IMG/VR virus record: IMGVR_UViG_3300022907_000067
Location: 1 to 30,342 of that record
Length of the DNA stretch: 30,342 bases
Origin: a virus
Strand: one strand, 5' to 3'
Shown: one piece after another, positions 330 to 28,857 of the stretch
Layout of the letters: every line of letters begins with the position of its first letter
Numbering within the stretch: position 1 is the stretch's first letter
Notes under the pieces: generated by a model
The model's input: the letters and a program-made list of their open reading frames with translations, nothing else
Told to the model about the DNA's origin: nothing
Databases searched by the model: none
Position numbers and translations under genes: made by a program

Positions 330-338
330 ATTATACCA
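330..338 (-). promoter_or_regulatory. Extended -10 promoter for the major tail gene
   Basis: The minus strand reads TGGTATAAT inside AGTGGTATAAT. No convincing -35 is seen. The predicted start lies about 45 nt before the ATG at 277, leaving room for a leader with a Shine-Dalgarno site. AGTGGTATAAT also precedes the genes starting at 8037, 13926 and 17326 (27281 has GTGGTATAAT). Confidence 0.6.
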
Positions 339-352
339 CTAATTTTGGACTA

Positions 353-892
353 TTATGATTTGTGCCAACAATAATCAATAATGATTTTGTTTCCTGCAAA
401 AGTGCGTGCTGTGCCAAAGTCAATAATGTCTCTGGTTTCTTCTAGCTGATAAATCTTTAGCTCATGAAAGAATACTGGGTAGAAATCTGCTCCGTTGATT
501 TCCTTTGTGCCTTCTGTAGTGCCATTTGGCTGAGAGGCTATCCATGCATTAAGCTCTTGGGCAGACTCATCTCCTCTATCTAGTAGGTCTTGAATTACCT
601 GTGTAGACTCAATTAGGTCTACTGGATCCCCTGCCATTTTATAGAAATAGTAAAGCAGTTGCTCATACTTCATGTGTGGGAATGGCCCCCTACGCATCTT
701 GAGCATCCTGTCAAACACTGCAAACACATCTCCTGCAGCATCTGGAAAAGTTTCTGTAAGATCGTCGATGGCTGTTGGAGAAGTAGGAAAAAACTTCATC
801 AGACCATTATCAAACCTATCTGTTCCAAGCTCTGCTGGAACCTTCTCTGCTAAATATGCATTAATAAATGCTGGTGGATAATAGATTGCCAT
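353..892 (-). CDS. Neck protein, probable tail terminator/tail completion protein
   Basis: 179 residues, soluble, with no signal or membrane segment. A longer frame starts at 919, but the ATG at 892 overlaps the TAA of the preceding gene by one base (TAATG), the junction used throughout this operon, so 892 is chosen. No motif identifies it. It is the last gene before the major tail protein, where siphophages usually encode the tail terminator that caps the tube and joins it to the head. A 61-nt gap follows before the tail promoter. Function is by position only; a second connector protein is the alternative. Confidence 0.5.
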   Translation of the reverse strand: MAIYYPPAFINAYLAEKVPAELGTDRFDNGLMKFFPTSPTAIDDLTETFPDAAGDVFAVFDRMLKMRRGPFPHMKYEQLLYYFYKMAGDPVDLIESTQVIQDLLDRGDESAQELNAWIASQPNGTTEGTKEINGADFYPVFFHELKIYQLEETRDIIDFGTARTFAGNKIIIDYCWHKS

Positions 893-1560
893 TATGCTGC
901 TGCACCTCCTGATGCCCAACTATACCCGACTGACCTTCCGTATCCCCTACCACCACGGACACCACGCTGAACATTATCCTTGTATGGGAATGGGTTTTTT
1001 AGGTAGTCAAAGATTTGGCTTGAGTTTAGATATGCCTGAGTAAAGTAGCTGTTAAAGAATGTTTCGAGTGTTTGCTCTAGAGCACCAGTAGTCTCTTCTC
1101 CTCCAGGATTTGCAACTACAACTGGCTTGCTTGTAAATACCTGCTCGCCATTATCCTCAAATGCCAGAACCTTTTTACGAGGTCGGATGGTAACTGGAAT
1201 ACCCATTTCCATAATCCTAGCCTTGTCATAGAATGGGACGGTAGAGCCATCTGAGATAGAGGTAGACTGTCTAAAAGTATAGTTAAAGGATATGCCTGCA
1301 CCACTTACACGATATCCTAGGTCAAAGAGTCTTCCCTGTGGTGTTCCTGTCATTGACCACTCATAAATGTGGTGTAGAGCTTGTGGGTTGACTCTTGCAT
1401 TGGCATCAACAAACTCTTTGATACGCTCAATGACTTCCTTACCTAGCTTGTCTAGTATCTGTGGCTTTGCGTTTTGAACTCCCTGCAAGAATCCCTCTGT
1501 ATACTCTACAAACTTAGTCATATCCTTATAAAACTTTTTGTCGTCAAATGCTACCCTCAT
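892..1560 (-). CDS. HK97 gp10-like neck/tail-completion protein
   Basis: 222 residues. The N-terminal third (about 5-60) is helical and charged, in the pattern 'FYKDMTKFVEYTEGFLQGVQ' followed by LGKEVIERIKEFVDAN, which recalls the helix of HK97 gp10-like neck proteins. The middle is beta-rich and includes a run with IPVTIRPRKKVLAF. The C-terminus is Gly-rich (GVRGGRGYGRSVGY) and probably flexible. The start overlaps the upstream TAA by one base and the stop overlaps the downstream ATG in the same way, so the three neck genes are translationally coupled. The family placement rests on helix pattern and gene order, not on catalytic or invariant residues. Confidence 0.5.
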   Translation of the reverse strand: MRVAFDDKKFYKDMTKFVEYTEGFLQGVQNAKPQILDKLGKEVIERIKEFVDANARVNPQALHHIYEWSMTGTPQGRLFDLGYRVSGAGISFNYTFRQSTSISDGSTVPFYDKARIMEMGIPVTIRPRKKVLAFEDNGEQVFTSKPVVVANPGGEETTGALEQTLETFFNSYFTQAYLNSSQIFDYLKNPFPYKDNVQRGVRGGRGYGRSVGYSWASGGAAA

Positions 1561-2009
1561 TAGATGTCCACCGCCTGATTCTCTGAACGGCGTAGAACAA
1601 TCTTGTAGTATTCTACTTTTCCAAAAGGTCCAACGTATGGCTCTTGGCTTGCAACCTCAAAGATGGTTGACTTGTTTGCACGAACGCCAGATGTCTCCAT
1701 ATAAATTGGATTACAGTTTCTATCTTTAATGTTGCTAATTACAACGTTAGTGATAGAGTTCTTTCCATCTTCTGATGTTACTCGTAGGTCTTGCTTTGAA
1801 CGACCAACTAAAACCTTTTCCTGTGTAATGTTCACATTTGGGGTAACTTCTTCTTTCATGGCAGAGCCTGGAGATGCAACAGATATAGCAATATTCCTAT
1901 CATACATCCATTGCTTTTTTACGTTACCGTATGCACCCTGCTCAACTGTAGGGTAAAAGATTTCTGCAGAGAGCGGAAAAAGAAAGTCTCCTGTATTGCA
2001 ATCTGCCAT
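1560..2009 (-). CDS. Probable head-tail stopper (head closure) protein
   Basis: 149 residues, mostly beta-strand in composition, with an N-terminal Cys (MADCNTGDFLFPLSAEIFYP). It contains a long loop region (SKQDLRVTSEDGKNS) and ends VDI. Small beta-barrel proteins of this size that follow the adaptor gene are normally stoppers of the SPP1 gp16 / HK97 gp7 type, which close the head after DNA packaging. ATG and stop each share a base with their neighbours. The sequence alone does not prove the fold; order and size carry the call. Confidence 0.5.
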   Translation of the reverse strand: MADCNTGDFLFPLSAEIFYPTVEQGAYGNVKKQWMYDRNIAISVASPGSAMKEEVTPNVNITQEKVLVGRSKQDLRVTSEDGKNSITNVVISNIKDRNCNPIYMETSGVRANKSTIFEVASQEPYVGPFGKVEYYKIVLRRSENQAVDI

Positions 2010-2890
2010 TATAACACTCCAGGTTTTGAAATCGCCTTTTTGTATTTGGAAAGAATCTTGTCTACAATTAGGTTTCCAGTTCCTTCAAATACACCCTTTT
2101 CAAACTGAATCTTAAACTGATCAGTGTTGTATGAAGAAACATAGTTCTTGTAATAATCCATTCTTCCACATGCAATATCGTCAACGAGTAGCTCTGCTGC
2201 TCTTACGATATCGGATGGTACTGTTGGATATCCGTGCTCATAGACAACACGGTAGTCCCAGTTCTTTGGGAATCCTAAATAGCTGTATCCAATGATACCG
2301 CTGTCAGATGAGGACGACGGCAATACAAGTCGTGCCTGCTCATCTCTATTATTTGGACCTTCAACAATTTCAACGATTGCTGTGCGGTCTCTAGAAAGTC
2401 CAAATGTTCTATCTGTAACAAGTTCGTTGTTCTCATATACGCTTGCTACCTTTACTACCTTATCCCAGACTGGAAGGAAGTCTGTTCCGCTTCCTGGAAT
2501 TTCTGCAGTCTTCTTTTGGTAGTAGAATCCTTCTCTTACGATGGAGTCAATAATTGCACGTGCAAGCTCTTCATTCTTTCTGTACTCTGCAATATCTGAG
2601 GCAACCTCTGCATGCTCTGTAGCCAACACATATGGCCTTCTTACCTCGTAAGTGTCGTGGATAACTAGACTGTTATCACTTGTTTGAATTTCAACATAGT
2701 AGTCGTTATCAAATTTAGCACTAAGCTCTACTACGAACTCTTCCCCTGTTGCCCCAGAGAAAGATTGTGAGGATACAGAAAGATCCGCCATATCTGTAAT
2801 ATACGCAACAAAATCCTGTGTGGCATAGCCCTCAGGAATAGTTAGTGATGCTTCTACTACATCATACGGCGGAACTCTCAGTATCTCCAT
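2009..2890 (-). CDS. Head-tail adaptor (connector) protein
   Basis: 293 residues, larger than typical gp6-like adaptors (about 100). The first about 85 residues look like an added beta-rich domain (PPYDVVEASLTIPEGYATQD). The middle has helical stretches (EVASDIAEYRKNEELARAII), and the end carries the adaptor-like helical part, with VPSDIVRAAELLVDDIACGR and KYKKAISKPGVL. The phrase 'YRVVYEHGYPTVPSDIVRAA' matches the usual adaptor feature 'Y..GYp.vP.dI..A...l', which is the best evidence. It starts 5 nt after the upstream stop. It would dock on the portal. Confidence 0.65.
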   Translation of the reverse strand: MEILRVPPYDVVEASLTIPEGYATQDFVAYITDMADLSVSSQSFSGATGEEFVVELSAKFDNDYYVEIQTSDNSLVIHDTYEVRRPYVLATEHAEVASDIAEYRKNEELARAIIDSIVREGFYYQKKTAEIPGSGTDFLPVWDKVVKVASVYENNELVTDRTFGLSRDRTAIVEIVEGPNNRDEQARLVLPSSSSDSGIIGYSYLGFPKNWDYRVVYEHGYPTVPSDIVRAAELLVDDIACGRMDYYKNYVSSYNTDQFKIQFEKGVFEGTGNLIVDKILSKYKKAISKPGVL

Positions 2891-2895
2891 TTAGC

Positions 2896-3342
2896 TTAAA
2901 GCTCCTTGGCAACGTCTTTCGGATCTGCTGCCCTAATGTGCTCACGTGTTAGCCACTGCTCTGCCTGGTCTTTAGTTACAATGTTAAGTCCTACATTGAC
3001 CCTACCGACTCCTGGCCATGACACGTTACGTGTTGAGTAAAGTGCAACAGTCTCTGGCTTAGGTGATGTGTCACCTTTACGTGGTGCCTTCTTTGTTGTC
3101 TTTTTCTTTGTGCTAGTTCCAATGACACCGTCACTTACTGGTGCAAGTGCTGGCTCCTCAGAAGCAACTGGCTCTGGTGATGAAATGAGTCCATCTTCCT
3201 CAGCCTCTGGTGCTTCTTCTACAACAGCCTCTACCTCTGGCATTACTGCTGCATCTTCTACTGGACGCTCCCACTCGGTACCGTCCTGAACCAGGCCATC
3301 GCCGTCGCCATCTGTAGCATCTGGATTAAACTCGTCTGCCAT
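2896..3342 (-). CDS. Acidic structural/head-accessory protein with DxDGDG loop
   Basis: 148 residues in three parts. Residues about 5-28 carry a calcium-loop-like motif (DATDGDGDGLVQDGTEWERP). Residues about 30-75 are a low-complexity acidic stretch rich in Glu, Pro, Ala and Val. A Lys-rich linker (TKKKTTKKAPRK) then leads to a folded C-terminal domain of about 50 residues (YSTRNVSWPGVGRVNVG ... AEQWLTREHIRAADP). It sits just after the capsid gene but behind a terminator and with its own promoter and strong ribosome site (AGGAGGAATC-ATG). Head decoration, head fibre or neck roles are possible; I do not recognise a proven function. Confidence 0.55.
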   Translation of the reverse strand: MADEFNPDATDGDGDGLVQDGTEWERPVEDAAVMPEVEAVVEEAPEAEEDGLISSPEPVASEEPALAPVSDGVIGTSTKKKTTKKAPRKGDTSPKPETVALYSTRNVSWPGVGRVNVGLNIVTKDQAEQWLTREHIRAADPKDVAKEL

Positions 3343-3367: not shown

Positions 3368-3376
3368 ATTATAGCA
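3368..3376 (-). promoter_or_regulatory. Extended -10 promoter TGCTATAAT
   Basis: On the minus strand TGCTATAAT lies immediately downstream of the capsid terminator and about 25 nt before the ATG at 3342. An AGGAGG ribosome site separates them. It restarts transcription into the acidic protein and neck genes. Confidence 0.55.
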
Positions 3377-3443: not shown

Positions 3444-4568
3444 TTAGGCATCCGCAGCTGCGTCAGCATATGCGATTGCGTCCTCTTCCTCCCACTGAAT
3501 ACCGAAGCGGACGAAGACGGTGTACTCTACAGTATCCTTCTTTGCCTTGTACTCACGGTTTACAGTGATGTCACGCTGGAATCCCCATACACGGTTCTGT
3601 GGGAATGTTAGGTCAACGTAACCATCTGGGTAGTAAGGTACTTCCTGAACCTGAACACCAAGAACACGGGTAGTGCGTGCACCACCGAATGTCTGGTCGG
3701 TACCTGCTAGGTAACGATCACGTCCAGCCTCTGTACCAGCAGCACCTGGGTGAGATCCGAAGGCCTCAGCAATAGCGTCTGCTAGTGTACCATTGTTCTT
3801 GACAATACCCTGGAATGCGTCTGTACCTACGTAGAACTTAAGGTTGTTCTTAAGTGCACGGTACTTACGTGGCAGTGCCAGGATAACATTCTGCATAACC
3901 TCTGGGGTCCATGCGTTGTCAGTAACTGTGACTACGGACTCGTGGGCGTAGCCACCAGTCTTAGCCTTGTTTACGAAACCATCCATGATGGACAGGAAGT
4001 TTCCTGTTGCTCCATCACCATTAATGGCAAGGTCCTCGATGTCATTTGCAAAAGCATTTGTCATCAGTCGTACTAGGTGATCCTCTAGTGCTGCACCTTC
4101 AACGTTGTCCTCGAGGGCCTCAGCTGAGACCTCCCAGTCCAAGCGGATCTTCTTTGTAGTAAGCTCCACCTTGCTGAATGTCGCACCAGTGTTTGTGTAG
4201 TCACCATCAGCCTGTGCAGCTGCACGGATTACACGCTCACCTACATTGACCTTCTCAAGCTCCATTGTGTTAGCTCGCATAGTAACACGACGGCCATCCT
4301 TGGCGAGAACGGTAGCATCCCAAACGTAATCAATGAAACGTTGTGCCTGCTCTGGGCGTAGGATTCCGCTACCTGCATCACCAGAAGGGTTTACAGCATT
4401 TGCTCCAGTGGTTGTACCGAAGCTAGCGGTTGGAATGTTTCCGAGGGTGCTAGCACCTGGATCGGTTACACCTCCAACTCCACCAGATGCGAATGCACCC
4501 TCACCGTTATATAGACCTGAGTCTGCACCAGCGGCATCTGGATTGTTTTTGATAATCTCTTCCGACAT
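3444..4568 (-). CDS. Major capsid protein (HK97 fold)
   Basis: 374 residues. The first about 65 are Gly/Ala/Ser/Thr-rich and flexible, then the folded part begins (ILRPEQAQRFIDYVWDATVL). Capsid-like signs are the segment KIRLDWEVSAEALEDNVEG, the spine-helix-like DHLVRLMTNAFANDIEDLAI, and the end 'VWGFQRDITVNREYKAKKDT' followed by VEYTVFVRFGIQWEEEDAIA, which is typical of actinophage capsid subunits. It lies 27 nt after the protease/scaffold gene and has an excellent ribosome site (TTAGGAGGTGACAAA-ATG). A terminator directly follows, so the capsid message ends here. HK97 fold is inferred from gene order and these segments. Confidence 0.85.
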   Translation of the reverse strand: MSEEIIKNNPDAAGADSGLYNGEGAFASGGVGGVTDPGASTLGNIPTASFGTTTGANAVNPSGDAGSGILRPEQAQRFIDYVWDATVLAKDGRRVTMRANTMELEKVNVGERVIRAAAQADGDYTNTGATFSKVELTTKKIRLDWEVSAEALEDNVEGAALEDHLVRLMTNAFANDIEDLAINGDGATGNFLSIMDGFVNKAKTGGYAHESVVTVTDNAWTPEVMQNVILALPRKYRALKNNLKFYVGTDAFQGIVKNNGTLADAIAEAFGSHPGAAGTEAGRDRYLAGTDQTFGGARTTRVLGVQVQEVPYYPDGYVDLTFPQNRVWGFQRDITVNREYKAKKDTVEYTVFVRFGIQWEEEDAIAYADAAADA

Positions 4569-4595: not shown

Positions 4596-5219
4596 TTAAC
4601 TAAATAAGTCGGCAGTTTTGAGGAAACGTCCGCCCCATATTGATTTTTCAACCTGTTCTGGTTGGTACTGCACGATCTCGCCTAGATCGCCAGATTTGCG
4701 GAAAGCGGTGTCTGTTTCTACAGCATCTACCCTCTTTCCAAACTCATCAAGACCACTCTTGGCTGCAGTGACTTCGTCCTTTACGGCTTTAATCTCTGCA
4801 TTGGCTCCATCAAGTGACTTCTTTAGATCAGCAATTTGCTCGTTTAGAGACTTAACAACTGCTGAAAGATCGCTAAAGGCTGATGTAATTCCATCCTTCA
4901 GTTCGGAAACTGCTTCAGATACATCGTCTGACTTTGATACCTCTTCAGTTGTCTCAACAGATGCCTCAACGGAATCTGACTTCTCCTTGTCGTAGGACTT
5001 GTCGTCTTCTTCCTCTTCCATGTTGTCTGACTTCTCTTCGGTCTCGTCCATATCTTCGGACTTCTCCTCCATGTCATCTTCATCCATGTCATCTGTCTTG
5101 GCAACCTCTGCCTCGTCTGCCTTTGTGGCATCCTCAGCTACGGCAACTGCCTCTGGAGCGACCTCGTCTGATTTCTCTACTACAGCCTCATCAGCTGGAG
5201 TTGTGTTTTCTTCAGTCAT
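4596..5219 (-). CDS. Nested in-frame scaffolding protein (internal start)
   Basis: An ATG at codon 254 of the protease gene is preceded by a textbook ribosome site, AAGGAGGT at 5227-5234, with 7 nt between. It would give a 207-residue protein starting MTEENTTPADEAVVEKSDEV: an acidic first third, a coiled coil near residues 100-175 and a basic/aromatic tail. This is the composition expected of a free scaffold, and the layout parallels the lambda C/Nu3 nested pair (known biology). The full-length start has a far weaker site, so the short form may be more abundant. The ribosome site is read directly; separate expression is inference. Confidence 0.65.
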   Translation of the reverse strand: MTEENTTPADEAVVEKSDEVAPEAVAVAEDATKADEAEVAKTDDMDEDDMEEKSEDMDETEEKSDNMEEEEDDKSYDKEKSDSVEASVETTEEVSKSDDVSEAVSELKDGITSAFSDLSAVVKSLNEQIADLKKSLDGANAEIKAVKDEVTAAKSGLDEFGKRVDAVETDTAFRKSGDLGEIVQYQPEQVEKSIWGGRFLKTADLFS

Positions 5220-5978
5220 AGGACTTACCTCCTTGTTCATCTTAGAAAGATCAATGCCTTTAGCACTATCAACTAAGAACTTTATCATTTCTGATTTCTC
5301 GTTGTCATTCTTTTCAACGAAACCTATATTCTTCATCGCATTTCCGTTAATCGGACTAGATGCGGAATCATCCTGAGTAATTAGAACCATTCCAGACTCT
5401 TCATCCCAAAAAACATTTTCAATCTCAACGTCTGCTACGTCACCCTTGACGACATCAACGCCGTCTACCTTTTCGATAGACATGATGTTTGCAAACTGAT
5501 TGGCTGGTGTATCTACTAGCGATAGCTCTACTAGGTCATACTCCTTAATTACACGAATGGACTTATCCATCTTCTCGTCGTATGCGTCATCCCAGTCATT
5601 CATTCTTCCTCCAATAGAGAAACCAGAAAGGGTGCCATCCAGGACCTTTTCCCAAGTATCCTGTGCACCCTTTGAAACATATGCTGATACGTATACGCCA
5701 GAATAAAACTTCTTGGATTCTGGGTCAAAGTACTTATCCTCTTTAAATGCAATCATCTTGCCAACTGCAAGTGGCTGGTGCATTTCACGGATGTTTCCAC
5801 GGAACTTAGCGAATGCTTTTAGAGATGCGTCCGTGGTTACAATATCATCTTGGCGGTCTACATTATCTAGGGTAGCAAAACCCGAAACGATGCGACGCTC
5901 TTTATCAACTTTAGAAAAGGGCATCGACAGACGGAGATTGTCTCCCTCTGTTGTAAACTGCGATTTTGAAATAGTCAT
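4596..5978 (-). CDS. Prohead protease with C-terminal scaffolding domain
   Basis: 460 residues. The N-terminal about 165 form an HK97-type prohead protease (peptidase U35): FSKVDKERRIVSGFAT, the likely catalytic His67 in REMHQP, the likely Ser121 in LSGFSIGG, and YDLVELSLVDTPAN near 148-160. Residues about 254-345 are very acidic and low in complexity (MDEDDMEEKSEDMDE), and about 355-430 form a coiled coil (VVKSLNEQIADLKKSLDGAN). The end is WGGRFLKTADLFS. Protease matures the head; the acidic coiled-coil part is a scaffold. The first start has no good Shine-Dalgarno; TATAAT lies 8 nt upstream, so the message may be leaderless. An internal start gives a second product (see 4596-5219). Confidence 0.85.
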   Translation of the reverse strand: MTISKSQFTTEGDNLRLSMPFSKVDKERRIVSGFATLDNVDRQDDIVTTDASLKAFAKFRGNIREMHQPLAVGKMIAFKEDKYFDPESKKFYSGVYVSAYVSKGAQDTWEKVLDGTLSGFSIGGRMNDWDDAYDEKMDKSIRVIKEYDLVELSLVDTPANQFANIMSIEKVDGVDVVKGDVADVEIENVFWDEESGMVLITQDDSASSPINGNAMKNIGFVEKNDNEKSEMIKFLVDSAKGIDLSKMNKEVSPMTEENTTPADEAVVEKSDEVAPEAVAVAEDATKADEAEVAKTDDMDEDDMEEKSEDMDETEEKSDNMEEEEDDKSYDKEKSDSVEASVETTEEVSKSDDVSEAVSELKDGITSAFSDLSAVVKSLNEQIADLKKSLDGANAEIKAVKDEVTAAKSGLDEFGKRVDAVETDTAFRKSGDLGEIVQYQPEQVEKSIWGGRFLKTADLFS

Positions 5979-5986
5979 ACTAGTTT

Positions 5987-6038
5987 ATTATATACCCCTT
6001 TTGTGTAAAAGTTACAAAAATGTAATACAATTATAACA
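5987..6038 (-). promoter_or_regulatory. Two -10 boxes before the protease gene
   Basis: Minus-strand TGTTATAAT lies at 6030-6038, just past the portal stop. A second TATAAT at 5987-5992 lies 8 nt before the ATG at 5978. The second position suits a near-leaderless message; the first would give a leader of about 45 nt without a clear Shine-Dalgarno site. A small TTACA/TGTAA stem lies between them. Confidence 0.5.
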
Positions 6039-7648: not shown

Positions 7649-8037
7649 TAGCCTTCATCTCCATATGCGTTAAGTGTCTGTTTTGCAGCTATGAGGGCAC
7701 CAACGTCATTCATGGAAGGAATTAGTCCTTGCTTCATTCTGTCCATCTGTTCGCTATGCTCTTCATCTGTAATTCTTGCTGATCCAGGGAAGAATATTGC
7801 CTCTCCCTCTGGCTCTCCATAATGCCTTGCAGCATCTTTAAGTTTCTGAATTTGGTTCTGGTCACCCTTGTTGGCAGGAACATTTAGAACATTTCCGTTA
7901 CCATCGGTAAACCATTTTCCGTTTGATTTCTTCCAAACGTATACGCCCCAGGCGTAACCAGACTGTGGCATTAGTGTTAGCTTAGCTTTTCCTAGTGCTT
8001 CTGCGAATAAATCTTGCTTTTCTTTCTTATTACCCAT
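7648..8037 (-). CDS. Small conserved-looking protein upstream of portal, unknown function
   Basis: 129 residues from ATG 8037. A TTG at 8043 is in frame but would place the start inside the spacer of the -10 box. Residues about 25-50 are aromatic and beta-like (SGYAWGVYVWKKSNGKWFTD), followed by a Gly/Asn loop and a helical C-terminal half (SEQMDRMKQGLIPSMNDVGA). TATAAT ends 7 nt before the ATG and there is no ribosome site, so the transcript is probably leaderless. It is coupled to the portal by a one-base overlap. I do not recognise the family; a packaging or portal accessory role is a guess from position. Confidence 0.6.
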   Translation of the reverse strand: MGNKKEKQDLFAEALGKAKLTLMPQSGYAWGVYVWKKSNGKWFTDGNGNVLNVPANKGDQNQIQKLKDAARHYGEPEGEAIFFPGSARITDEEHSEQMDRMKQGLIPSMNDVGALIAAKQTLNAYGDEG

Positions 8038-8044: not shown

Positions 8045-8053
8045 ATTATACCA
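8045..8053 (-). promoter_or_regulatory. Extended -10 promoter TGGTATAAT, leaderless spacing
   Basis: Minus-strand TGGTATAAT with 7 nt to the ATG at 8037, which would place the transcription start at or next to the start codon. It drives the portal unit and sits just after the stop of the large fibre gene. Confidence 0.6.
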
Positions 8054-13953: not shown

Positions 13954-13962
13954 ATTATACCA
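13954..13962 (-). promoter_or_regulatory. Extended -10 promoter TGGTATAAT
   Basis: Minus-strand AGTGGTATAAT, overlapping the region just after the stop of the small zinc-ribbon frame (13963). About 20-25 nt of leader with AGGAG precede the TTG at 13926. Confidence 0.6.
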
Positions 13963-14788: not shown

Positions 14789-14797
14789 ATTATAGCA
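14789..14797 (-). promoter_or_regulatory. Extended -10 promoter TGCTATAAT before the oxygenase
   Basis: Minus-strand TGCTATAAT, about 26 nt before the TTG at 14762, with ACGGAG between. It lies just after the stop of the FTPF-repeat gene (14803). Confidence 0.55.
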
Positions 14798-15664: not shown

Positions 15665-17326
15665 TTAAGCGGCTGTATCTCCGAAGACAAGCCATGAGTT
15701 TGCTGCCCTCTTTAGGAGGGTAACGGATGACCACTGTGTGCGTAGCTTTGTACCAGGGGTTCCGTTTACTACTGCCGAACCAGTTCCAGCGATTGTAACC
15801 TGACCAGCTCCAGTCTGAATGATGTCTAGCGTAGAACCTACTGGGAAGTTTACGGTTGCATCTTCTGGGATAGTTAGTGTTACTGCAGAACCACTGTTGA
15901 CCTCAATAATTGTGTCTTTTTCGTCAGTGCTTGTAAGTGTGTAAGCTGCTGTCTTCTCAGCGATTGGTGTAATGGAAGGCACTCCAACCTTTGTCTGAGT
16001 TCCATCTGTAAATACAACTCCAGCCACCTCAACATTGTTAACTGCTAGGTCATCAAGTGATCCCTGAGCAAAGTTAATTGTTGTGCTTGGCTCGTCTGTA
16101 ACACCCTTAAAGAGCTTCCAGATGTCGTCAGAAGCATCACGAACAATACCTGCGTGCTGGTAGGTGCCGTCATCAAACGATCCTACGAGACCAAGGTCTG
16201 CAGTGTTAGAGGTTGAGCCCTCACCAATGTAGATCATTGGGTCATTTACGACTAGGTCCTGTGTGCTAACTGTAGTTGTAGTACCAGATACTGTAAAGTC
16301 TCCAGACACTGTAATGTTTCCAGAGAATGTCTGGTCTGCACCACTTAGAAGTGCTAGGTCGGATGTATCTGCAATGCCGTGAACATTTGTGGTTACAGCA
16401 GCGTGGGTTACAATCTCTCCATCTGCGTGTCCCTCAGCAGCTGTTTGTGCTGCAGTGACATCTGAAGTTGTTGCAAGCACAGAGGTGTCTGCAATACCGT
16501 GCACGTTAGTTGTAATAGCTGCGTGAGTAGATACTGCAGAAGATACATCAGTGTCTGTCGCTAGAACTGATGTGTCTGCGATACCGTGAACATTTGTGGT
16601 TGTAGAGTTGTGGGTGCTTACAGCTGCATCTGCATCTCCTGCAGCATCATAATTTGATGCTAGGCTATCTGCATATGCCTCTGCTGTTGCCTCTGCTGCT
16701 GCCTGAGCATCGTTTGCTGCATCTTGTGCATATGTCTTCGTAGCAAGCTCTGCTGTGTCTGCAATACCGTGCACATTTGTGGTTACGGCAGCGTGGGTTA
16801 CAAGGTCAGCAGCATCTGAAGTTACATCTGCCTGCAACTGAGTAATATCTGCTGTGGCTGCATCAATGTTGTTTTGAAGAGTCGTATCTGCAGCCTGATA
16901 GTCAGTCTCTAGCTGAGTATCTGCTAGCTGATATGCCGATGTTACAGCAGTATCCTGTAGATCTGCATAGTCAAAGGCTGCCTGCAAATTAGTTGCATCC
17001 TGTGTTGTCAGAGTAGTTGTAGTTGTTGAAAGATCGCTCTGTAGCGAAGCAATTGCATTAGTATTTGCTGCTACTGTTGTATAGAAGTCTGGGTTCTCGT
17101 CAATTGCAATTGCAATCTCTGCCAGAGTATCTAGGGTAGCTGGGGCAGCACCAATAATAGCGGAAGCATCCGAGAAAGCCTCTAGGTTACTCCAGGTGTT
17201 GGTTCCGTCACCAAACTTAAATTTTCCAGTGTCGGTTTCATAACCAATCTCGCCAGCAGCGAGTACTGGATCTGCTGCTGTCCATTCTGCCGCAGTTCCA
17301 CGGCGTTGCTGCATTCTAGTTGCCAT
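15665..17326 (-). CDS. Tail fibre with Mtd_N-like start, NVHGI repeats and coiled coil
   Basis: 553 residues. Residues 1-50 (MATRMQQRRGTAAEWTAADP, VLAAGEIGYETDTGKFKFGD, TWSNLE) are a clear Mtd_N-like anchor, paralogous to 12853-13926. About 85-300 are Ala/Thr/Asp-rich heptad-like repeats, with four copies of 'TTNVHGIADTS', probably a trimeric coiled coil with repeated turns. About 315-430 form a beta shaft (GNITVSGDFTVSGTTTTVST, DPMIYIGEGSTSNTADLGLV) and the end is a beta tip (TPGTKLRTQWSSVTLLKRAA, NSWLVFGDTAA). The layout is a full fibre: anchor, shaft, tip. It begins after a promoter, a small leader hairpin and TAGGAGATTAAATA-ATG. Tip target is unknown. Confidence 0.75.
   Translation of the reverse strand: MATRMQQRRGTAAEWTAADPVLAAGEIGYETDTGKFKFGDGTNTWSNLEAFSDASAIIGAAPATLDTLAEIAIAIDENPDFYTTVAANTNAIASLQSDLSTTTTTLTTQDATNLQAAFDYADLQDTAVTSAYQLADTQLETDYQAADTTLQNNIDAATADITQLQADVTSDAADLVTHAAVTTNVHGIADTAELATKTYAQDAANDAQAAAEATAEAYADSLASNYDAAGDADAAVSTHNSTTTNVHGIADTSVLATDTDVSSAVSTHAAITTNVHGIADTSVLATTSDVTAAQTAAEGHADGEIVTHAAVTTNVHGIADTSDLALLSGADQTFSGNITVSGDFTVSGTTTTVSTQDLVVNDPMIYIGEGSTSNTADLGLVGSFDDGTYQHAGIVRDASDDIWKLFKGVTDEPSTTINFAQGSLDDLAVNNVEVAGVVFTDGTQTKVGVPSITPIAEKTAAYTLTSTDEKDTIIEVNSGSAVTLTIPEDATVNFPVGSTLDIIQTGAGQVTIAGTGSAVVNGTPGTKLRTQWSSVTLLKRAANSWLVFGDTAA
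16362..16800 (-). repeat. Four dispersed NVHGIADT-coding repeats
   Basis: Copies near 16365-16395, 16484-16512, 16573-16602 and 16755-16785 each encode TTNVHGIADT(S/A). They are spaced about 90-180 nt apart, in phase, within one gene; a related copy lies in the gene at 12853-13926. Confidence 0.7.
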
Positions 17327-17344: not shown

Positions 17345-17376
17345 AGGGTGTTGCCCTATCTTTTTAAATTATACCA
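17345..17376 (-). promoter_or_regulatory. Extended -10 promoter TGGTATAAT with leader hairpin
   Basis: Minus-strand AGTGGTATAAT (-10 at 17368-17373) lies ahead of a short AGGG/CCCT stem at 17345-17357, which precedes the TAGGAG site of the 553-residue fibre gene. The hairpin is only 4 bp, so a regulatory role is weak. Confidence 0.55.
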
Positions 17377-20006: not shown

Positions 20007-20021
20007 GCTCTATTATAGAGC
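20007..20021 (-). promoter_or_regulatory. -10 box inside a 15-bp palindrome
   Basis: The minus strand reads GCTCTATAATAGAGC, a perfect palindrome with one central base. It contains TATAAT and ends just before the ATG at 20005 (6 nt after the box). It could be an operator or an RNA-level hairpin. Confidence 0.5.
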
Positions 20022-20036
20022 CCTTTTTAAATAAAA

Positions 20037-20663: not shown

Positions 20664-20701
20664 ATTATAGCATAGACTTTTGGGGAAATCACTGGTATAA
20701 T
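20664..20701. promoter_or_regulatory. Divergent promoter pair
   Basis: A minus-strand TGCTATAAT (20664-20672) points left to the gene at 20656 and a plus-strand TGGTATAAT (20693-20701) points right to the lysozyme-like gene. The boxes are only 26 nt apart, so both polymerases cannot easily bind at once. Start spacing is 7 nt left and 10 nt right. Confidence 0.65.
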
Positions 20702-20711: not shown

Positions 20712-21326
20712 ATGAACAAAACTATTGCCAAAGTAGGCGTTGTCGGAATGGTAGTTCTCGGTATCTCAGAATGCCATATGATAACTGCCCCAGCTGTTCT
20801 TGCTGATGACTCAGAACCCCAAACACAAAGTTTACAATTAGGTAAAGTAAGAAGTCTGGTTGGCACAGAAGATAGTAGCCACGGATGGATTGACCTAAAT
20901 GCTCCTGACTTTACTAGAAACTCTAGCTATGAAATTATTACAATAGCTCCTTGGGAAAAACCAGAAGTTGCTGCAAAGCAAATGGATGTTGATCAGCTAA
21001 AGCGTGTTTTACGATACGCAGGTTTTGAAGGGTATTCTCTTAGAATGGCTCAAGCAATCATTTTCCTAGAGTCAACAAGAAGAATGTATGCTCATAACCC
21101 AAATCACCTAACTGGTGATAACTCTTATGGTCTATTCCAGATTAATATGTTTAGGGGTCTAGAGGAGCAAAGGCTTGAACAGTTTGGGCTTTCTAGAAAC
21201 GAAGATTTATTTAATCCTGGGATTAATGCTAGGGTAGCTTGGGAAATATCTAATGGTGGAACTGATTGGTCTGCTTGGACTACATACCCTGAAGCAAAAA
21301 AGATTGTTGGAAACTATTCAGACTAA
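20712..21326 (+). CDS. Secreted lysozyme-like/transglycosylase endolysin
   Basis: 204 residues from ATG 20712; an ATG at 20700 is in frame but overlaps the -10 box. A signal peptide spans about residues 1-31 (positive start, hydrophobic core VGVVGMVVLG, probable cut after AVLA). Residues about 100-200 form a lysozyme-like fold: QAIIFLESTRR with probable catalytic Glu120, then DNSYGLFQINM and DLFNPGINARVAWEISNGG with DWSAWTTY, as in goose-type/SLT enzymes that cut peptidoglycan. It is the only plus-strand gene among the late genes, with its own promoter. Its stop overlaps the epimerase stop by 4 nt. It could lyse the host or act on the wall after secretion. Confidence 0.75.
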   Translation: MNKTIAKVGVVGMVVLGISECHMITAPAVLADDSEPQTQSLQLGKVRSLVGTEDSSHGWIDLNAPDFTRNSSYEIITIAPWEKPEVAAKQMDVDQLKRVLRYAGFEGYSLRMAQAIIFLESTRRMYAHNPNHLTGDNSYGLFQINMFRGLEEQRLEQFGLSRNEDLFNPGINARVAWEISNGGTDWSAWTTYPEAKKIVGNYSD

Positions 21327-22294
21327 GTTATCTGGTCTGCTATCCACCAAAAAGTTTTTTCTAATCCTCTAGCCAATGGGGTTTTTGGCTTCCATCCAGT
21401 TTGCTGAAATACAAAAGTGTTTTCTGAGTTTCTAGCAACAACCCCTGTTGGTCCAGGTATATGCTTTTTCTTTAGTCTTTTGCCAGCAATGTCTGCCACT
21501 ATGTCAAAAAGCTGATTAATTGTGACAGGCATGTCGGAGCCTATATTTACTGGCAATACACATTCAGATTTCATTAGTGCATAGATACCATCTAATGCAT
21601 CTTCTATAAATAGAAAAGATCTTAGCTGTTCTCCATCGCCAAAGATTTCTACTTCTGTCCCCCAGTTAGCAGATGCTATCTTTCTACAAATTGCTGCTGG
21701 TGCTTTTTCTTTTCCGCCAGTCCATGTTCCTTCTGGCCCAAAGACATTATGAAATCTAGCAATTCTTACGGGGACTCCGTAGTTTTTGTGCAGAGCTGAG
21801 AACAACCTCTCGCTAAATAGTTTTTCCCATCCATACTCTGAATCTGGATTAGCTGGATAGGCAGCCGTTTCTACTAAGTTAACTATACTACTGTCTAGCT
21901 GTGCCTCTTCTGGATAAATACAAGCACTACTTGAATAAAATATTTTTGAACTATACATTCCCAGCTCAAGGATTGCTTTTATTAGGTTAAGGTTTATCTG
22001 CACTGAGTTAGTCATGATATTTGTATCGTTGTCGCCAACAAAAATATACTCTGCACCACCCATATCTGCTGCTAGCTGATATATTTCGTCAAATGGGTGG
22101 CCATGTAGAGATATAGACTTTTTTACAGACTCATAATCTGTTAGGTCTAAGAGAAGGTATTCATCTGCTGGAGATTTTGAAAACTCTGGCTCCTTTATAT
22201 CCACTGCCCTGACCCAGTAGCCCATAGCCTTAAGCCTTTTAACCAGATGACTTCCTATAAGTCCACCTGCACCGAATACAAGTGCATTCGTCAC
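21323..22294 (-). CDS. NAD-dependent epimerase, GDP-mannose 3,5-epimerase-like
   Basis: About 323 residues. GTG at 22294 overlaps the upstream TAG by one base (TAGTG), echoing this operon's usual junction; an ATG at 22309 also exists. It has a Rossmann GxxGxxG (FGAGGLIGSHL), an active-site YGWEK (YxxxK), SSS catalytic serines (FYSSSACIYPE), and an RFHNVFGPEGTWTGG stretch followed by KEKAPAAICRK, features shared with GDP-D-mannose 3,5-epimerases. It is complete, with no missing motif. It probably alters a nucleotide sugar, for glycosylating a virion protein or remodelling host surface sugar. Substrate is inferred from motif resemblance only. Confidence 0.75.
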   Translation of the reverse strand: MTNALVFGAGGLIGSHLVKRLKAMGYWVRAVDIKEPEFSKSPADEYLLLDLTDYESVKKSISLHGHPFDEIYQLAADMGGAEYIFVGDNDTNIMTNSVQINLNLIKAILELGMYSSKIFYSSSACIYPEEAQLDSSIVNLVETAAYPANPDSEYGWEKLFSERLFSALHKNYGVPVRIARFHNVFGPEGTWTGGKEKAPAAICRKIASANWGTEVEIFGDGEQLRSFLFIEDALDGIYALMKSECVLPVNIGSDMPVTINQLFDIVADIAGKRLKKKHIPGPTGVVARNSENTFVFQQTGWKPKTPLARGLEKTFWWIADQIT

Positions 22295-23778
22295 TAGATA
22301 TCTTCCCAACTACTTCCATTATATCTTTTAGCTACTGTCAGATCCACCCAGCTGCTTCCGTTATACCTTTTAAAAGTTGTTAGTTGAGTAGATGAGCTTG
22401 GTCCTGTCATTCTGTAACCTCCATTAAGAAGTGCTGACTCAACTGTAATTGTAAAAGTTTTTTCTGTAGTTCCAGAAGTATTGGAGGCATAGATAGTAAA
22501 GGTGTAACTTCCTGCTGTTGTTGGGGTTCCTCCAAGAGAGCCATTGCTAAAAATTAATCCTGCTGGAAGAGTTCCCGAATAGGACCAGCTATCAACATTG
22601 GATGCTGAAACCGAATCAGAATAGGATACTCCAATTGTAGCTGTAGTAGCTAGTGTCTGGTCAATCCATGACGGGGCTGGCAAAGATGCTATATAAATAG
22701 AGAACTGCTGTTCTGCTGGCCCGCCGTCGTTTTCTGCACGAAGAGTAAATGTGTATGTTCCAGAAGATGTTGGGGTTCCGCTTACGTAGTAGTATTCTCC
22801 AGAAGCACTTCCTGATAACCCTGGTGGCAACGATCCAGAAGATATATAGATATTTCCATATGCAGTATCGTGTCCTGATGCCCTTGCAGAGTCTTGAACA
22901 TACCCAGTATTAATTTGTCCAGAGTTAAAAGAGCCACTCCATGTTGGTGCTGGAACTGGTGGGGTATCTGATTCAGTAGTTGCACTGGCTGTAGATGACC
23001 ATGGCCCAGTAGATCCTGATACAACATTTCTGATAGTGCTGTCATAGGCTGCTACCCTAAAGTCATAGGCTGTTCCTGCAGATAGTCCAGTTACAGAAGC
23101 AGATGTAGAAGTAGTTGTTGTAAATGATATCCAAGTAGAAGATGATGATGCTTTATATTGAACATCATATCCATCTGCACCAGTAGCAACACCAGAAGCA
23201 GAGACAGATCCCCAAGACAAGCTTACGCTATTTTGACCTGTTGTGGTTGCAGACAAAGAAGATGGTGCATTCGGTAGTCCATAGTATTCAAGAGAGAGGT
23301 ATTGCTGATATCCACTCCAACTATAGGTAACAGAGCCAGTGCTTGGTGCTACAACATACGTAGTCTCTCCTGAAGCGGACCCCCTTAAGGTGTATGCTCC
23401 TCCTGGACCCAGAGCTTCCAGTCCACCATAATATTCTGAGGTGCTTCCTAATACTGCAGAAACATTCCCTGCCATATATTTATAGCTACTACCAAGCTGG
23501 CTTGATCCATCATAGGTACTATACGCTCTAGTTCTTGCTTTATTAAAAGATGCAGTAGTACTACCCATAACAACGTTGACACCATTGTCTCCGCTATCAG
23601 CGTCTCCCAGCCTTGCATACACTGTCATTTTGGTAACAGTATAGAGAGCTCTTCCTTCTTGTGGGTTTGTGTTTCCTCCCCAATCATCTGGGGTGAAGCT
23701 AGAAATAATTGCTCTATCAGAACTTGTTACATAGGCAACATTGCTTCCGCCAGTTGTTCCATAAGTCTTAGTTGCCAT
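22294..23778 (-). CDS. Fibre protein with FN3 and two He_PIG domains
   Basis: 494 residues. About 1-165 form an N-terminal beta domain rich in Ser/Gly/Tyr (ATKTYGTTGGSNVAYVTSSD). An FN3 domain follows at about 170-265 (PSSLSATTTGQNSVSLSWGS, GLSAGTAYDFRVAAYDSTIR), then two He_PIG-like repeats (about 275-365 and 366-450: PTWSGSFNSGQ, PSWIDQTLAT). The tail has two RYNGSSW copies (KRYNGSSWVDL, RYNGSSWEDI), related to the Y(D/N)G(S/T)xW end of 11624-12844. It starts after AGGAGG. Likely an adhesive or spacer protein of the tail; target unknown. Confidence 0.65.
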   Translation of the reverse strand: MATKTYGTTGGSNVAYVTSSDRAIISSFTPDDWGGNTNPQEGRALYTVTKMTVYARLGDADSGDNGVNVVMGSTTASFNKARTRAYSTYDGSSQLGSSYKYMAGNVSAVLGSTSEYYGGLEALGPGGAYTLRGSASGETTYVVAPSTGSVTYSWSGYQQYLSLEYYGLPNAPSSLSATTTGQNSVSLSWGSVSASGVATGADGYDVQYKASSSSTWISFTTTTSTSASVTGLSAGTAYDFRVAAYDSTIRNVVSGSTGPWSSTASATTESDTPPVPAPTWSGSFNSGQINTGYVQDSARASGHDTAYGNIYISSGSLPPGLSGSASGEYYYVSGTPTSSGTYTFTLRAENDGGPAEQQFSIYIASLPAPSWIDQTLATTATIGVSYSDSVSASNVDSWSYSGTLPAGLIFSNGSLGGTPTTAGSYTFTIYASNTSGTTEKTFTITVESALLNGGYRMTGPSSSTQLTTFKRYNGSSWVDLTVAKRYNGSSWEDI

Positions 23779-25229: not shown

Positions 25230-25588
25230 TATGCACCGCTAACCTGTTCTGTAACTGTGATTGTTCCAGTTAGCACTGTATAGGTCTTTGGATATGGCGT
25301 AGCATCTGGATCGCTAATCTCTACGTCATAAACGTAAGTTGTGGCAAGCGTTAGGGCATCAGAGTCGGATGGGGTTATCGCACACTCAATTGCTGCATCT
25401 GTGACATTTGTGTAAGCTGTAATCTGGTTAGCAGAACCATCTGCACCCCTACTTGTAGAGATCGTAAAGGTAGCATCATATCCAGATAGATTGTCTAGGA
25501 CAGTGCCGTCAGATTTGCGAGGGATGACATTAAACTCGTAAGTGTCACCTCGATAATAAGAAAAATTATAAGTACCTGGAAAAGCCAT
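25229..25588 (-). CDS. BppU-like Ig-fold tail protein (paralogue 2)
   Basis: 119 residues, same family as 20258-20656 and 26895-27281: YYRGDTYEFNV near the start, a central DATFTISTSRG strand, a late YDVEISDP strand and an ITVTEQV end. TATAAT lies 6 nt before the ATG at 25588 with no ribosome site, so the transcript is probably leaderless. It heads a three-gene coupled unit (25588 to 23788). Likely a baseplate or fibre adaptor. Confidence 0.6.
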   Translation of the reverse strand: MAFPGTYNFSYYRGDTYEFNVIPRKSDGTVLDNLSGYDATFTISTSRGADGSANQITAYTNVTDAAIECAITPSDSDALTLATTYVYDVEISDPDATPYPKTYTVLTGTITVTEQVSGA

Positions 25589-25594: not shown

Positions 25595-25603
25595 ATTATA
25601 GCA
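25595..25603 (-). promoter_or_regulatory. Extended -10 promoter TGCTATAAT, leaderless spacing
   Basis: Minus-strand TGCTATAAT, 6 nt before the ATG at 25588. Confidence 0.6.
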
Positions 25604-25605: not shown

Positions 25606-26310
25606 TTAGCTGACAGAAATTGTAATACTTAGAGGTGTGAAGAGGCTGTTCATATCTGATCTTGCTTGTGGCAAAATACCGTGTGTTTTTTCAGAATCTT
25701 CTTCCAAGGTAAGGAAGTGTGTTACAGATAGGCGATACTCATATTCATACTTGAAAAGACCTACAAATGATGTATATGCTCTTTCGCTATTTGGGAATAC
25801 AGAGCGTAGCCATAGCTCAGTATTGGAACCTAGGGTCACAAAATCAAAGTCGTAAGTGATTTGTAGTCTTGTTCCTAGCTTGAGGTGTTTGAGATTAATT
25901 CTATCTGCTTCTTTGTTGTAAAGAGCTACAGACTTTTCTGGTAGGTATAGTTCTGTAGTATCTTTTCCAGATGCGTCTAGGTCAAAAGATACCCAGCCGT
26001 CTCTACCTTTCTTGGCACCCAAAGATATCTGCTCTTGCTTCTTGGCAGTATACCTTGCCCATCCAGTCTTTTGTTTGTAAGTTGGAAAATAACTTTCTCC
26101 ATCTTTTCCTGGAAGACCTCTCTCTCCCCTAGGACCTTCTGGACCATCTTTACCAGGAATACCCTGTGGACCCCTCTCCCCCTGTGGACCACGTGGGCCT
26201 TCTGGCCCTGGCACAGCAATATATTGGGGACCATCTAGTAGTGGTTGCGAGGAAGCTTCTTTTTCATACGGAGAAGCCTTTTTACGAATTTTTGGGAAGT
26301 CCTGTTCCAT
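25606..26310 (-). CDS. Collagen-like tail protein 1
   Basis: 234 residues. Residues about 33-73 contain about 13 consecutive GXY triplets ([19 protein letters not shown] and so on), a collagen-like triple helix with charged Y positions (E/K/R/D) that suit stable trimers. A globular beta domain of about 150 residues follows ([37 protein letters not shown]) and ends [13 protein letters not shown]. Pro in Y positions (GIP, GLP) could be hydroxylated by the oxygenase at 14106-14762, but that is speculation. A GATAAT box lies 7 nt before the ATG. Confidence 0.7.
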
Positions 26311-26317: not shown

Positions 26318-26326
26318 ATTATCTCA
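26318..26326 (-). promoter_or_regulatory. -10 box TGAGATAAT, leaderless spacing
   Basis: Minus-strand TGAGATAAT, 7 nt before the ATG at 26310 and close behind the stop of the preceding collagen gene (26332). GATAAT is weaker than TATAAT. Confidence 0.4.
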
Positions 26327-26895: not shown

Positions 26896-27281
26896 TATAA
26901 ACTACCTCCTGTAACGTCTCCAATAACTGATATAGTCCCCACGACTGGTGTCCACACCGTGTCTCTGTCAATTGTTACTTGAAGATCGAAAGCCAATTCT
27001 GCTACGGTGCGAGAATATCCTTCTCCCCATAGCGATGTAATATCTGCTGTTGCGGTAATTGTTACATATCCGTCGCCAGCGACAACTTCTAATTCATCTG
27101 TGATGCCATTTTTGTAATCATAGGCCGACGCAGCATATTCCCAACTGCTGGTATCCCAAGCAGTGGCTTCGTCGTTTTCGTAAAACTCTACACGTAGCTC
27201 AGACGTGTCGCCTCGCACAACATTCCATTTAATGTTGGCGGGATTAGCCCCAAAGGCTTCTGGTCCACAAGATGATGTCAT
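26895..27281 (-). CDS. BppU-like Ig-fold tail protein (paralogue 3)
   Basis: 128 residues. [19 protein letters not shown] near residues 19-37 and the [13 protein letters not shown] end match 20258-20656, the closest paralogue. Beta-sandwich composition, no signal peptide. A TGGTATAAT box lies 9 nt before the ATG and there is no ribosome site. It heads the unit that includes the collagen-like gene at 26332-26895. Confidence 0.6.
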
Positions 27282-27290: not shown

Positions 27291-27299
27291 ATTATACCA
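27291..27299 (-). promoter_or_regulatory. Extended -10 promoter TGGTATAAT
   Basis: Minus-strand GTGGTATAAT, 9 nt before the ATG at 27281, directly downstream of the T-rich terminator tract. Confidence 0.6.
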
Positions 27300-27575: not shown

Positions 27576-27872
27576 TTACTTCTTATTAGCAATATAGTCT
27601 ATAAACTTTTCATAAAGATCATCGATTTTGCGTTCTACTTTTTCTATTCTTCTAAAGCTTTCTGTGTTTAGGTTTTCGTTTCTTTCGGTTCTAACTTCTA
27701 GACGGTTAATCTGATCCTTTATGCTTCCTCCGCCGTTAGGCTTAAGCTCTTGCTTAATTTCTCCCAGGTAATGTTTGACTAACCATCTAATTGCCATGGC
27801 CACCATTGTAAATAGCGTACCTATCGCTACTGAAATTGCAAGGATAGTTTCTATTGTCGATAGTGGGGTCAT
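27576..27872 (-). CDS. Membrane-anchored coiled-coil protein, possible holin
   Basis: 98 residues: one hydrophobic segment (about 8-30, TILAISVAIGTLFTMVAMAI), then WLVKHYLGEIKQELKPNGGG and a charged coiled coil (about 50-98, INRLEVRTERNENLNTESFR and on). I recall similar phage membrane proteins with ELKPNGG-then-coiled-coil and no clear role; holin or envelope-associated roles are usual guesses. The gene is isolated between two noncoding regions. TATAAT lies 9 nt upstream in a palindrome, and AAAGGG before the ATG could be a weak ribosome site. Confidence 0.55.
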   Translation of the reverse strand: MTPLSTIETILAISVAIGTLFTMVAMAIRWLVKHYLGEIKQELKPNGGGSIKDQINRLEVRTERNENLNTESFRRIEKVERKIDDLYEKFIDYIANKK

Positions 27873-27873: not shown

Positions 27874-27892
27874 ACCCTTTAATTATAAGGGT
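27874..27892 (-). promoter_or_regulatory. -10 box within an ACCCTT/AAGGGT palindrome
   Basis: TATAAT (27882-27887, minus) lies within the inverted repeat ACCCTT...AAGGGT, 9 nt before the ATG at 27872. The neighbouring site copy 2 (27896-27912) lies immediately upstream. Confidence 0.45.
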
Positions 27893-28030: not shown

Positions 28031-28039
28031 TGGTAGAAT
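28031..28039 (+). promoter_or_regulatory. Extended -10 promoter TGGTAGAAT, leaderless spacing
   Basis: TGG-TAGAAT with 7 nt to the ATG at 28047. No ribosome site is seen, so a leaderless start is likely. Confidence 0.55.
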
Positions 28040-28046: not shown

Positions 28047-28250
28047 ATGAGTGACGTAAATTTCTTTGATCTCTTTGATCCTAAACAACCTAGGACCCAG
28101 AAAGATATCCAGAAAGAACGTCTAGAAACATGCAGAAGCTGTGAGTTCTTTTTACCAGGATCGCAACGATGCAAACTTTGTGGGTGTTTTATGACTATGA
28201 AGACAACCTTGGAACAAGCAAAATGTCCTATGGGATATTGGAAGGAATAA
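28047..28250 (+). CDS. Small zinc-binding phage protein (67 aa)
   Basis: 67 residues from ATG 28047. Frames from 28014 would start ahead of the -10. Cys29, Cys32, Cys42, Cys45, Cys47 and Cys60 lie in TCRSCEFF, RCKLCGCF and KCPMGYW, a zinc-ribbon-like pattern with a 'C..CGCFM..K' core that I know from small proteins of cyanophages and other phages. The N-terminus (MSDVNFFDLFDPKQPRT) is amphipathic. It is followed 1 nt later by 28252-28446. Leaderless-type promoter. Role unknown; a host-takeover or nucleic-acid-binding protein is likely. Confidence 0.7.
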   Translation: MSDVNFFDLFDPKQPRTQKDIQKERLETCRSCEFFLPGSQRCKLCGCFMTMKTTLEQAKCPMGYWKE

Positions 28251-28446: not shown

Positions 28447-28448
28447 TC

Positions 28449-28466
28449 GTTACCATTTCGTTATAA
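28449..28466 (+). promoter_or_regulatory. GTTAYCA-pair regulator site, copy 4
   Basis: GTTACCATTTCGTTATAA, 20 bp before TATAAT at 28487 and overlapping a second TATAAT at 28462. Confidence 0.55.
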
Positions 28467-28483
28467 TTATACCTCCGAAGATA

Positions 28484-28492
28484 TGATATAAT
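28484..28492 (+). promoter_or_regulatory. Extended -10 promoter TGATATAAT
   Basis: TGA-TATAAT, 30 nt before ATG 28523. It probably drives the next two tiny genes. A 5-codon ATG...TGA frame (28496-28513) lies in the leader. Confidence 0.5.
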
Positions 28493-28522
28493 GTAATGTC
28501 CCCAGACAAGTGAGCTATCAAG

Positions 28523-28630
28523 ATGAAGAAACTATGGATTTTGTTGTATACCTCCATAATTATTGCTAGTTGGATAGGTCTTTTTATGGGAGTTATACAT
28601 ATATTAGGAAATTATGCTACATCAAGATGA
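28523..28630 (+). CDS. Single-helix membrane peptide (35 aa)
   Basis: 35 residues: MKKLWILLYTSIIIASWIGL, then a Gly/Met/His stretch and YATSR. One hydrophobic helix (about 4-28) with a Lys start suggests an inner-membrane peptide. It overlaps the following HTH frame by 17 nt. The ribosome site is weak. Small membrane peptides of this kind can be holins, antiholins or exclusion proteins; none can be chosen. Confidence 0.45.
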   Translation: MKKLWILLYTSIIIASWIGLFMGVIHILGNYATSR

Positions 28631-28781
28631 AAATTACTTAAGAAACGCTATAGAGTCAGGAAAGACCTCTAGAGATATCTCTAAGGACCTAGGCGTTTCG
28701 TATAAGCTTGTCGAGATTTACCTCGAAAAGTTTAACATACCGTTTACATCTATGATACCTGTTGTTATTGACGAAGATTAG
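28614..28781 (+). CDS. Small helix-turn-helix protein (55 aa)
   Basis: 55 residues. Residues about 8-38 (NAIESGKTSRDISKDLGVSY, KLVEIYLEKFNI) have the spacing and turn of a helix-turn-helix (SGKTSRDISKDLGVSYKLVE), as in sigma-region-4-like or resolvase-tail HTH units. TAGGA lies 4 nt before the ATG. It is a candidate regulator for the repeated sites around it. Its stop overlaps that of the opposite-strand peptide at 28778. Confidence 0.6.
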   Translation: MLHQDENYLRNAIESGKTSRDISKDLGVSYKLVEIYLEKFNIPFTSMIPVVIDED

Positions 28782-28843
28782 ACTCCGTGATCACAGCAAC
28801 AACTACCATTTTTAACTTTGCATCCGCATCGATTGCATTTCAT
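28778..28843 (-). CDS. 21-residue Cys-rich micropeptide (candidate)
   Basis: The frame reads MKCNRCGCKVKNGSCCCDHG and V: six Cys and one His in 21 residues. TGGTATAAT lies 5 nt before the ATG with no ribosome site. It runs convergent to the HTH gene and their stops overlap. The Cys density and the good promoter favour a real, metal-binding gene; its small size keeps the call modest. Confidence 0.45.
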   Translation of the reverse strand: MKCNRCGCKVKNGSCCCDHGV

Positions 28844-28848
28844 ATCTA

Positions 28849-28857
28849 ATTATACCA
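28849..28857 (-). promoter_or_regulatory. Extended -10 promoter TGGTATAAT
   Basis: Minus-strand CTGGTATAAT, 5 nt before the ATG at 28843. Confidence 0.5.

Follow-up and report, generated by a model that had tools for sequence, protein, structure and literature searches.

The window analysed here, a 30,342-base virus record from IMG/VR (IMGVR_UViG_3300022907_000067) with nearly all of its genes on the minus strand, encodes a capsid protein, a capsid maturation protease, a portal protein, a tail fibre and lysozyme-like proteins. A first-pass annotation had described within it a family of TG(G/C)TATAAT promoter boxes without −35 elements, about eleven of them only 5–10 nucleotides (nt) before a start codon. 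This arrangement raises the question of whether the phage starts some of its genes on leaderless mRNAs and others behind a leader, and of what reads the promoters. Our best reading, which we hold with good confidence, is that these boxes would be extended −10 promoters of host sigma-A, coupled to the leaderless translation of actinobacteria.

A scan of viral contigs provided 157 relatives, dereplicated to 84, which together with the window comprise 1.20 Mb; protease protein identities across the set range from 58% to 85%. The window's capsid genes share 41–45% identity with those of Streptomyces phage Faust, and its capsid module, on which the comparison was made, is homologous and syntenic with that of the Stanwilliamsviridae. 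We read the window as a stretch of a tailed phage of actinobacteria, with a distant relationship to that family. A WhiB gene is present in 11 of 12 long records (11 relatives plus Faust); WhiB-like proteins are reported to be exclusive to Actinobacteria (PMC6282962). This gene and the relationship to Streptomyces phages together point to an actinobacterial host, though not to the exact host of these aquatic phages. A search of genome contigs with the portal protein, made as a host clue, found no relative.

Promoter boxes lie at two preferred distances from start codons

The sequence TGNTATAAT is strongly enriched in the window, with 15 matches where 100 shuffles average 1.66 and reach 5 at most; the majority of the matches lie just 5' of a gene and on its coding strand. 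A box matching TATAAT in at least five of six positions was observed 5–10 nt before 13 of the 35 listed starts, while shuffled upstream regions gave a mean of 2.3 and a maximum of 8 (2000 trials); other distance bins of 5–6 nt hold 0–3 starts each. These 13 starts include all eleven that the first-pass annotation had listed as leaderless, plus those at 22309 and 28614. All eleven are ATG codons, and two of the leadered starts are TTG. The companion claim, that genes with a ribosome-binding site have a more distant box, also held: the genes starting at 277, 3342, 13926, 14762 and 17326 carry a Shine-Dalgarno (SD) site, with the box 25–54 nt away. Two matches to TGTTATAAT, at 2008–2016 and 6030–6038, are not start-proximal boxes of the leaderless kind, the first of them overlapping a start codon.

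The same two distances were observed across the 84 dereplicated relatives. Measured to the first ATG of an open reading frame (ORF) of at least 60 amino acids, TGNTATAAT peaks at 6 nt and then at 17 to ~40 nt, and overall the distance from box to ATG is bimodal (6–9 nt or ~17–50 nt) over many protein families. Permuted motifs gave neither a peak at 6–9 nt nor paired peaks; the two peaks of a reversed-motif control, at 6 and 12 nt, look as if each stemmed from one site shared among orthologues. Boxes without the TG also gave large peaks, at 9 and 17 nt, but these came mainly from single orthologous sites (those of the protease and pre-portal genes). To correct for this inflation by orthologues, we regrouped the sites by protein family. 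Counted in this way, TGn boxes at 5–10 nt serve 15 families, with a strong SD site in none, and TGn boxes at 17–30 nt serve 7 families, with a strong SD site in 65%.

The first-pass annotation had also stated that the leaderless starts lack a ribosome-binding site. SD sites are indeed missing there, but for boxes at 5–8 nt the absence is partly mechanical because the hexamer itself fills the SD position. The evidence independent of that contrast is the positional peak and its conservation. With a −10-like signal ~10 basepairs or less before the start codon and no SD site, these genes share the arrangement of actinobacterial leaderless genes.

The start arrangement is conserved gene by gene

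The clearest leaderless-type gene is that starting at 8037, upstream of the portal gene (phrog_9394), in which TGGTATAAT (8045–8053, minus strand) lies 7 nt before the ATG. In relatives, TGNTATA[AC]T is found at 77 of 78 loci of this gene; its distance to the ATG is 7 nt at 75 of them and 6 nt at the other 2.

The capsid maturation protease gene (4596–5978, minus strand; phrog_9427, E 3e-118; 42% identity to Faust gene 26) is likewise of the leaderless type, with TATAAT (5987–5992, minus) 8 nt before its ATG at 5978. In relatives TATA[AC]T lies 7–10 nt from the ATG in 78 of 78 cases, and a strong SD site is present in 0 of 78. The adjoining major capsid protein gene (3444–4568, minus; 41% identity to the Faust capsid protein) has the opposite arrangement, with the SD site AGGAGGTGA and no promoter box of its own; a strong SD site (AGGAGG) is present in 64 of 68 relatives, and TATAAT occurs within 60 nt in 1 of 68. 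The gene at 2896–3342 has a leadered promoter, TGCTATAAT (3368–3376, minus), 25 nt before its ATG with SD site AGGAGG, and the order of TATAAT, SD site and ATG is kept in 39 of 54 relatives. These comparisons indicate that the leaderless or leadered mode is fixed gene by gene across the relatives.

Faust, taken from record NC_070783.1 with start codons annotated by others, has the same arrangement at matching genes. In its first 50 kb a box lies 6–8 nt upstream of 9 of 57 coding sequences, with none at 0–5 or 9–14 nt; all nine genes start with ATG, and an SD site is found in 0 of the 9 versus 30 of the 48 others (p = 5e-4). The Faust homologues of the genes starting at 8037 and 5978 are leaderless-type and the Faust capsid gene is SD-led. 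The Faust gene after the capsid gene has TGCTATAAT with an SD site, its link to the gene starting at 3342 resting on weak similarity (E 0.004) and position. The mode is not universal: a leaderless-type gene at 11130 in Faust has a weak homologue at 11598 in the window that carries an SD site. Taken together, the bimodal distance, the conservation of individual genes and the matching arrangement in Faust lend good support to the first-pass terms ‘leaderless’ and ‘two modes mixed by design’.

The leader of the tail protein gene provides a spacing ruler

The gene starting at 277, a major tail protein homologue, has a leadered promoter, TGGTATAAT (330–338, minus strand), with a leader of ~50 nt and SD site GAGGTGA, and the arrangement is conserved in relatives. 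The 5' leader extends to the start codon (275–324, minus) and begins (TT)GAGGAAAC. In 40 of 41 major-tail leaders of relatives GAGGAAAC starts 6–7 nt after the −10 box, and an alignment of 38 leaders shows no change in any of its eight bases. Since a search for GAGGAAAC was used to gather the leaders, the spacing is an independent result and the invariance is not. The same 6–7 nt separates most leaderless-type ATGs from their boxes. If GAGGAAAC represents a conserved transcript 5' end, the same distance would put most leaderless starts on the ATG or within 3 nt of it; agreement with this ruler is poorer for two boxes of the window, at 5 and 10 nt.

The minus-strand leader at 275–324 also holds a CGCC(T/C) sequence able to pair with the SD sequence GAGGTG. 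Predicted hairpins in major-tail leaders are weak (z ~−2.4 to +0.5), and an Rfam search of the window gave no match.

Two probable promoter classes

TGn-TATAAT is the extended −10 element, which is read by the housekeeping sigma factor without a −35 element. Family-weighted logos of the TGn promoters show no −35 signal, and matches to TTGACA are as frequent as in shuffles (25% versus 21%, and 15% versus 24%). The first-pass description of promoters lacking a −35 is thus borne out for the TGn class. It does not extend to the protease promoter at 5978, for which relatives keep a TTGACA-like hexamer (at least 4 of 6 matching) at 15–19 nt in 78% of cases versus 27% in shuffles, although a control window at 8–12 nt is also high (68%) and the adjoining AT-rich tract may add to the score.

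Protease promoters have no TGn consensus and so fall outside the extended −10 definition. Their distinguishing feature is instead an AAAA element in the spacer (5999–6002, minus strand), which is conserved in relatives. Its first three A positions do not vary in any of 80 promoters and the fourth is conserved in 85%, and all 78 cases have AAAA 4–8 nt ahead of the box, versus 9% in shuffles. We therefore distinguish two probable promoter classes, a TGn extended −10 class and a class with an A-tract in the spacer, represented at 5978 and probably at 20005. The AAAA often follows TTT to form a partial dyad (65% versus 1.5% in shuffles), a possible operator or sigma contact. A further box, TGTTATAAT at 6030–6038 (minus), is a possible second promoter 51 nt upstream of the start of the protease gene; TGnTATAAT is visible at a similar place in several relatives.

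The proposed family TG(G/C)TATAAT accordingly needs narrowing. The enrichment of TGNTATAAT supports it, but the promoters of 5978 and 20005 are without TGn, and those of 26310, 27872 and 28047 read TGAGATAAT, CCTTATAAT and TGGTAGAAT, respectively. The reported recurrence of AGTGGTATAAT at four late promoters was an overcount, as it was found before three genes only (277, 13926 and 17326); GTGGTATAAT, minus the leading A, precedes 8037 and 27281.

A model for transcription and translation, and its rivals

In the model that we favor, host RNA polymerase carrying the housekeeping sigma factor, whose identity we infer, would transcribe the phage genes. Most promoters would be extended −10 elements needing no −35, and a second class (5978, probably 20005) would have an A-tract in the spacer in place of TGn, with a weak −35 added at the protease. 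Transcription would start ~7 nt after the −10 box. An ATG placed at that point would yield an mRNA that is leaderless or has 1–3 extra nucleotides, with translation starting at the 5'-terminal AUG as is common in actinobacteria, and an ATG 25–55 nt downstream would yield an mRNA leader with an SD site. The leaderless protease transcript would extend into the gene for the capsid protein, where a strong SD site but no separate promoter is present, so that a single mRNA would yield abundant capsid and only a little protease. The stoichiometry of protease and capsid may thus be one likely use of the two start modes.

Several observations weigh against this picture. Exact TATAAT 6–7 nt before ATG is only weakly enriched in 118 sampled actinobacterial genomes (~76 matches versus ~61 for the reversed control), so that the phage boxes are far closer to consensus than host usage; most of these genomes are probably of high GC content, and the comparison is not decisive. 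The epimerase gene at 21323–22309 was considered as a clue to the host and dropped, its best matches (53–59% identity) being spread over several phyla. A spacing of 8–10 nt at some genes predicts a leader of 1–3 nt, rather than none. Finally, leaderless translation is not clearly weaker in mycobacteria (PMC7148126), which bears on the proposed role in stoichiometry.

The first-pass annotation had taken the missing −35 as a sign of a phage or host factor. Sigma70 region 2 (PF04542) was found in 0 of the 12 long records, which are mostly fragments, and the same search was positive in 10 of 14 control genomes. Since an extended −10 element is readable by the housekeeping sigma factor and no Sigma70 region 2 was found, a special factor is not required. 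The WhiB gene, on the other hand, leaves room for a phage protein that modulates host sigma. Such a regulator, perhaps WhiB-like, could bind region 4 of host sigma-A and divert polymerase from −35-dependent host promoters to TGn promoters, with the A-tract class forming a regulated subset. The gene's presence in nearly all long records and the lack of a −35 at TGn promoters are as this explanation expects, and WhiB proteins do bind sigma-A region 4 (PMC3905903, PMC10245118). WhiB7, however, activates promoters in which a −35 is directly preceded by an AT-rich motif, unlike the TGn promoters here, and plain sigma-A suffices for extended −10 promoters; we consider the explanation unlikely. A combined version, in which phage WhiB acting on host sigma-A would switch two late-gene promoter classes and the choice of leaderless or SD-led starts would set protein ratios in the capsid operon, seems to us a shade less likely still.

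We think it highly improbable that TGn-TATAAT is a phage-specific promoter, read by a phage sigma factor or RNA polymerase that the Pfam model missed. The consensus is strong and uniform across the family, as that would predict, but it is the ordinary bacterial one, and the sigma search described above gave no match in 12 mostly fragmentary records, with 10 of 14 controls positive (single-subunit RNA polymerases were not searched for). It is equally hard to credit that the boxes are remnants or promoters of downstream genes, with the start-proximal genes translated from longer read-through transcripts without SD sites and the short spacing due to chance or selection for AT-richness near starts. 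Regions around starts are indeed rich in AT, transcripts may read through from genes upstream and a second box lies ~50 nt upstream of the protease start, but permuted motifs show no peak at 6–9 nt, the gene starting at 8037 keeps a spacing of 6–7 nt at 77 of 78 loci, and positional enrichment is far above shuffles.

Additional promoters in the window

Three further leadered promoters were located on the minus strand: TGGTATAAT (13954–13962) for the gene starting at 13926 (TTG; SD site AGGAG), TGCTATAAT (14789–14797) for that starting at 14762 (TTG; SD site GGAG), and TGGTATAAT (17368–17376) for the Mtd_N tail fibre gene at 15665–17326 (SD site AGGAG). The protease-type A-tract promoter appears to be reused as AAAAAGGGCTCTATAAT (20012–20028, minus), 6 nt before the ATG at 20005.

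TGCTATAAT (20664–20672, minus) lies 7 nt before the ATG at 20656, and TGGTATAAT (20693–20701, plus) lies 10 nt before the ATG of a lysozyme-like gene at 20712, placing divergent promoters within ~40 nt (20664–20701). The gene starting at 20656 is the first of three phrog_1084 paralogues. The second, at 25588, has TGCTATAAT (25595–25603, minus) 6 nt before its ATG, and the third, at 27281, has TGGTATAAT (27291–27299, minus) 9 nt before its ATG, so that each carries its own TGn promoter of the leaderless type. Between the second and third paralogues are the starts of collagen-like fibre genes, at 26310 and 26895, the former with TGAGATAAT (26318–26326, minus) 7 nt before its ATG. The arrangement suggests that phrog_1084 promoter and gene duplicate as a cassette.

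The remaining boxes are a TATAAT without TGn (27882–27887, minus), 9 nt before the ATG at 27872; TGGTAGAAT (28031–28039, plus), 7 nt before the ATG at 28047 of a gene of 67 amino acids (phrog_13558); and TGGTATAAT (28849–28857, minus), 5 nt before the ATG at 28843. This last box is present as the first-pass annotation had listed it, but the ORF has only 21 codons and the gene is doubtful. The NAD-dependent epimerase gene (21323–22309, minus; TTG start) lies within the tail-fibre region, and its closest bacterial homologues come from many phyla.

Comparison with known systems

In the open-access literature we found no phages in which a leaderless programme is conserved gene by gene throughout a family, nor any description of leaderless promoters in phages of Streptomyces. 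The feature is real and conserved; it is ordinary in kind for actinobacteria, but as a programme shared by a whole phage family it is, as far as our searches show, new. Because the pattern occurs both in uncultured aquatic phages and in a cultured phage of Streptomyces lividans, it can be tested directly. It also offers a rule for start-codon choice to annotators of these genomes, and a spacing ruler by which transcription starts could be predicted.

Among known phages, the Stanwilliamsviridae (Streptomyces phages Faust, Wakanda, Tomas and Bmoc) are the closest parallel, their portal, capsid protease and capsid genes being homologous to those of the window and identically ordered, but the window has no membrane-protein gene between portal and protease. 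In the Boydwoodruffvirinae (Tomas and Bmoc) the box before the protease is degraded.

Extended −10 sigma-70 promoters resemble the TGn classes here in having TGnTATAAT and no detectable −35. The protease type differs from them in its lack of TGn, its invariant AAAA at about −22 to −19 and its −35-like hexamer.

The leaderless (TA-led) genes of Actinobacteria likewise have a box ~10 basepairs or less before the AUG and no SD site, and make up around a fifth of genes (PMC3160421, PMC6742748). In S. lividans ~20% of mRNAs are leaderless, AUG is preferred in them, and the −10 elements read TANNNT (PMC6742748). In five sampled small actinobacterial genomes of 47–49% GC, pooled, we found 5 TATAAT-like boxes at 5–8 nt and 0 at 0–4 or 9–16 nt. 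The genes described here differ from the TA-led genes in being phage late genes and in having a near-consensus TATAAT, often with TGn, where Streptomyces has TANNNT.

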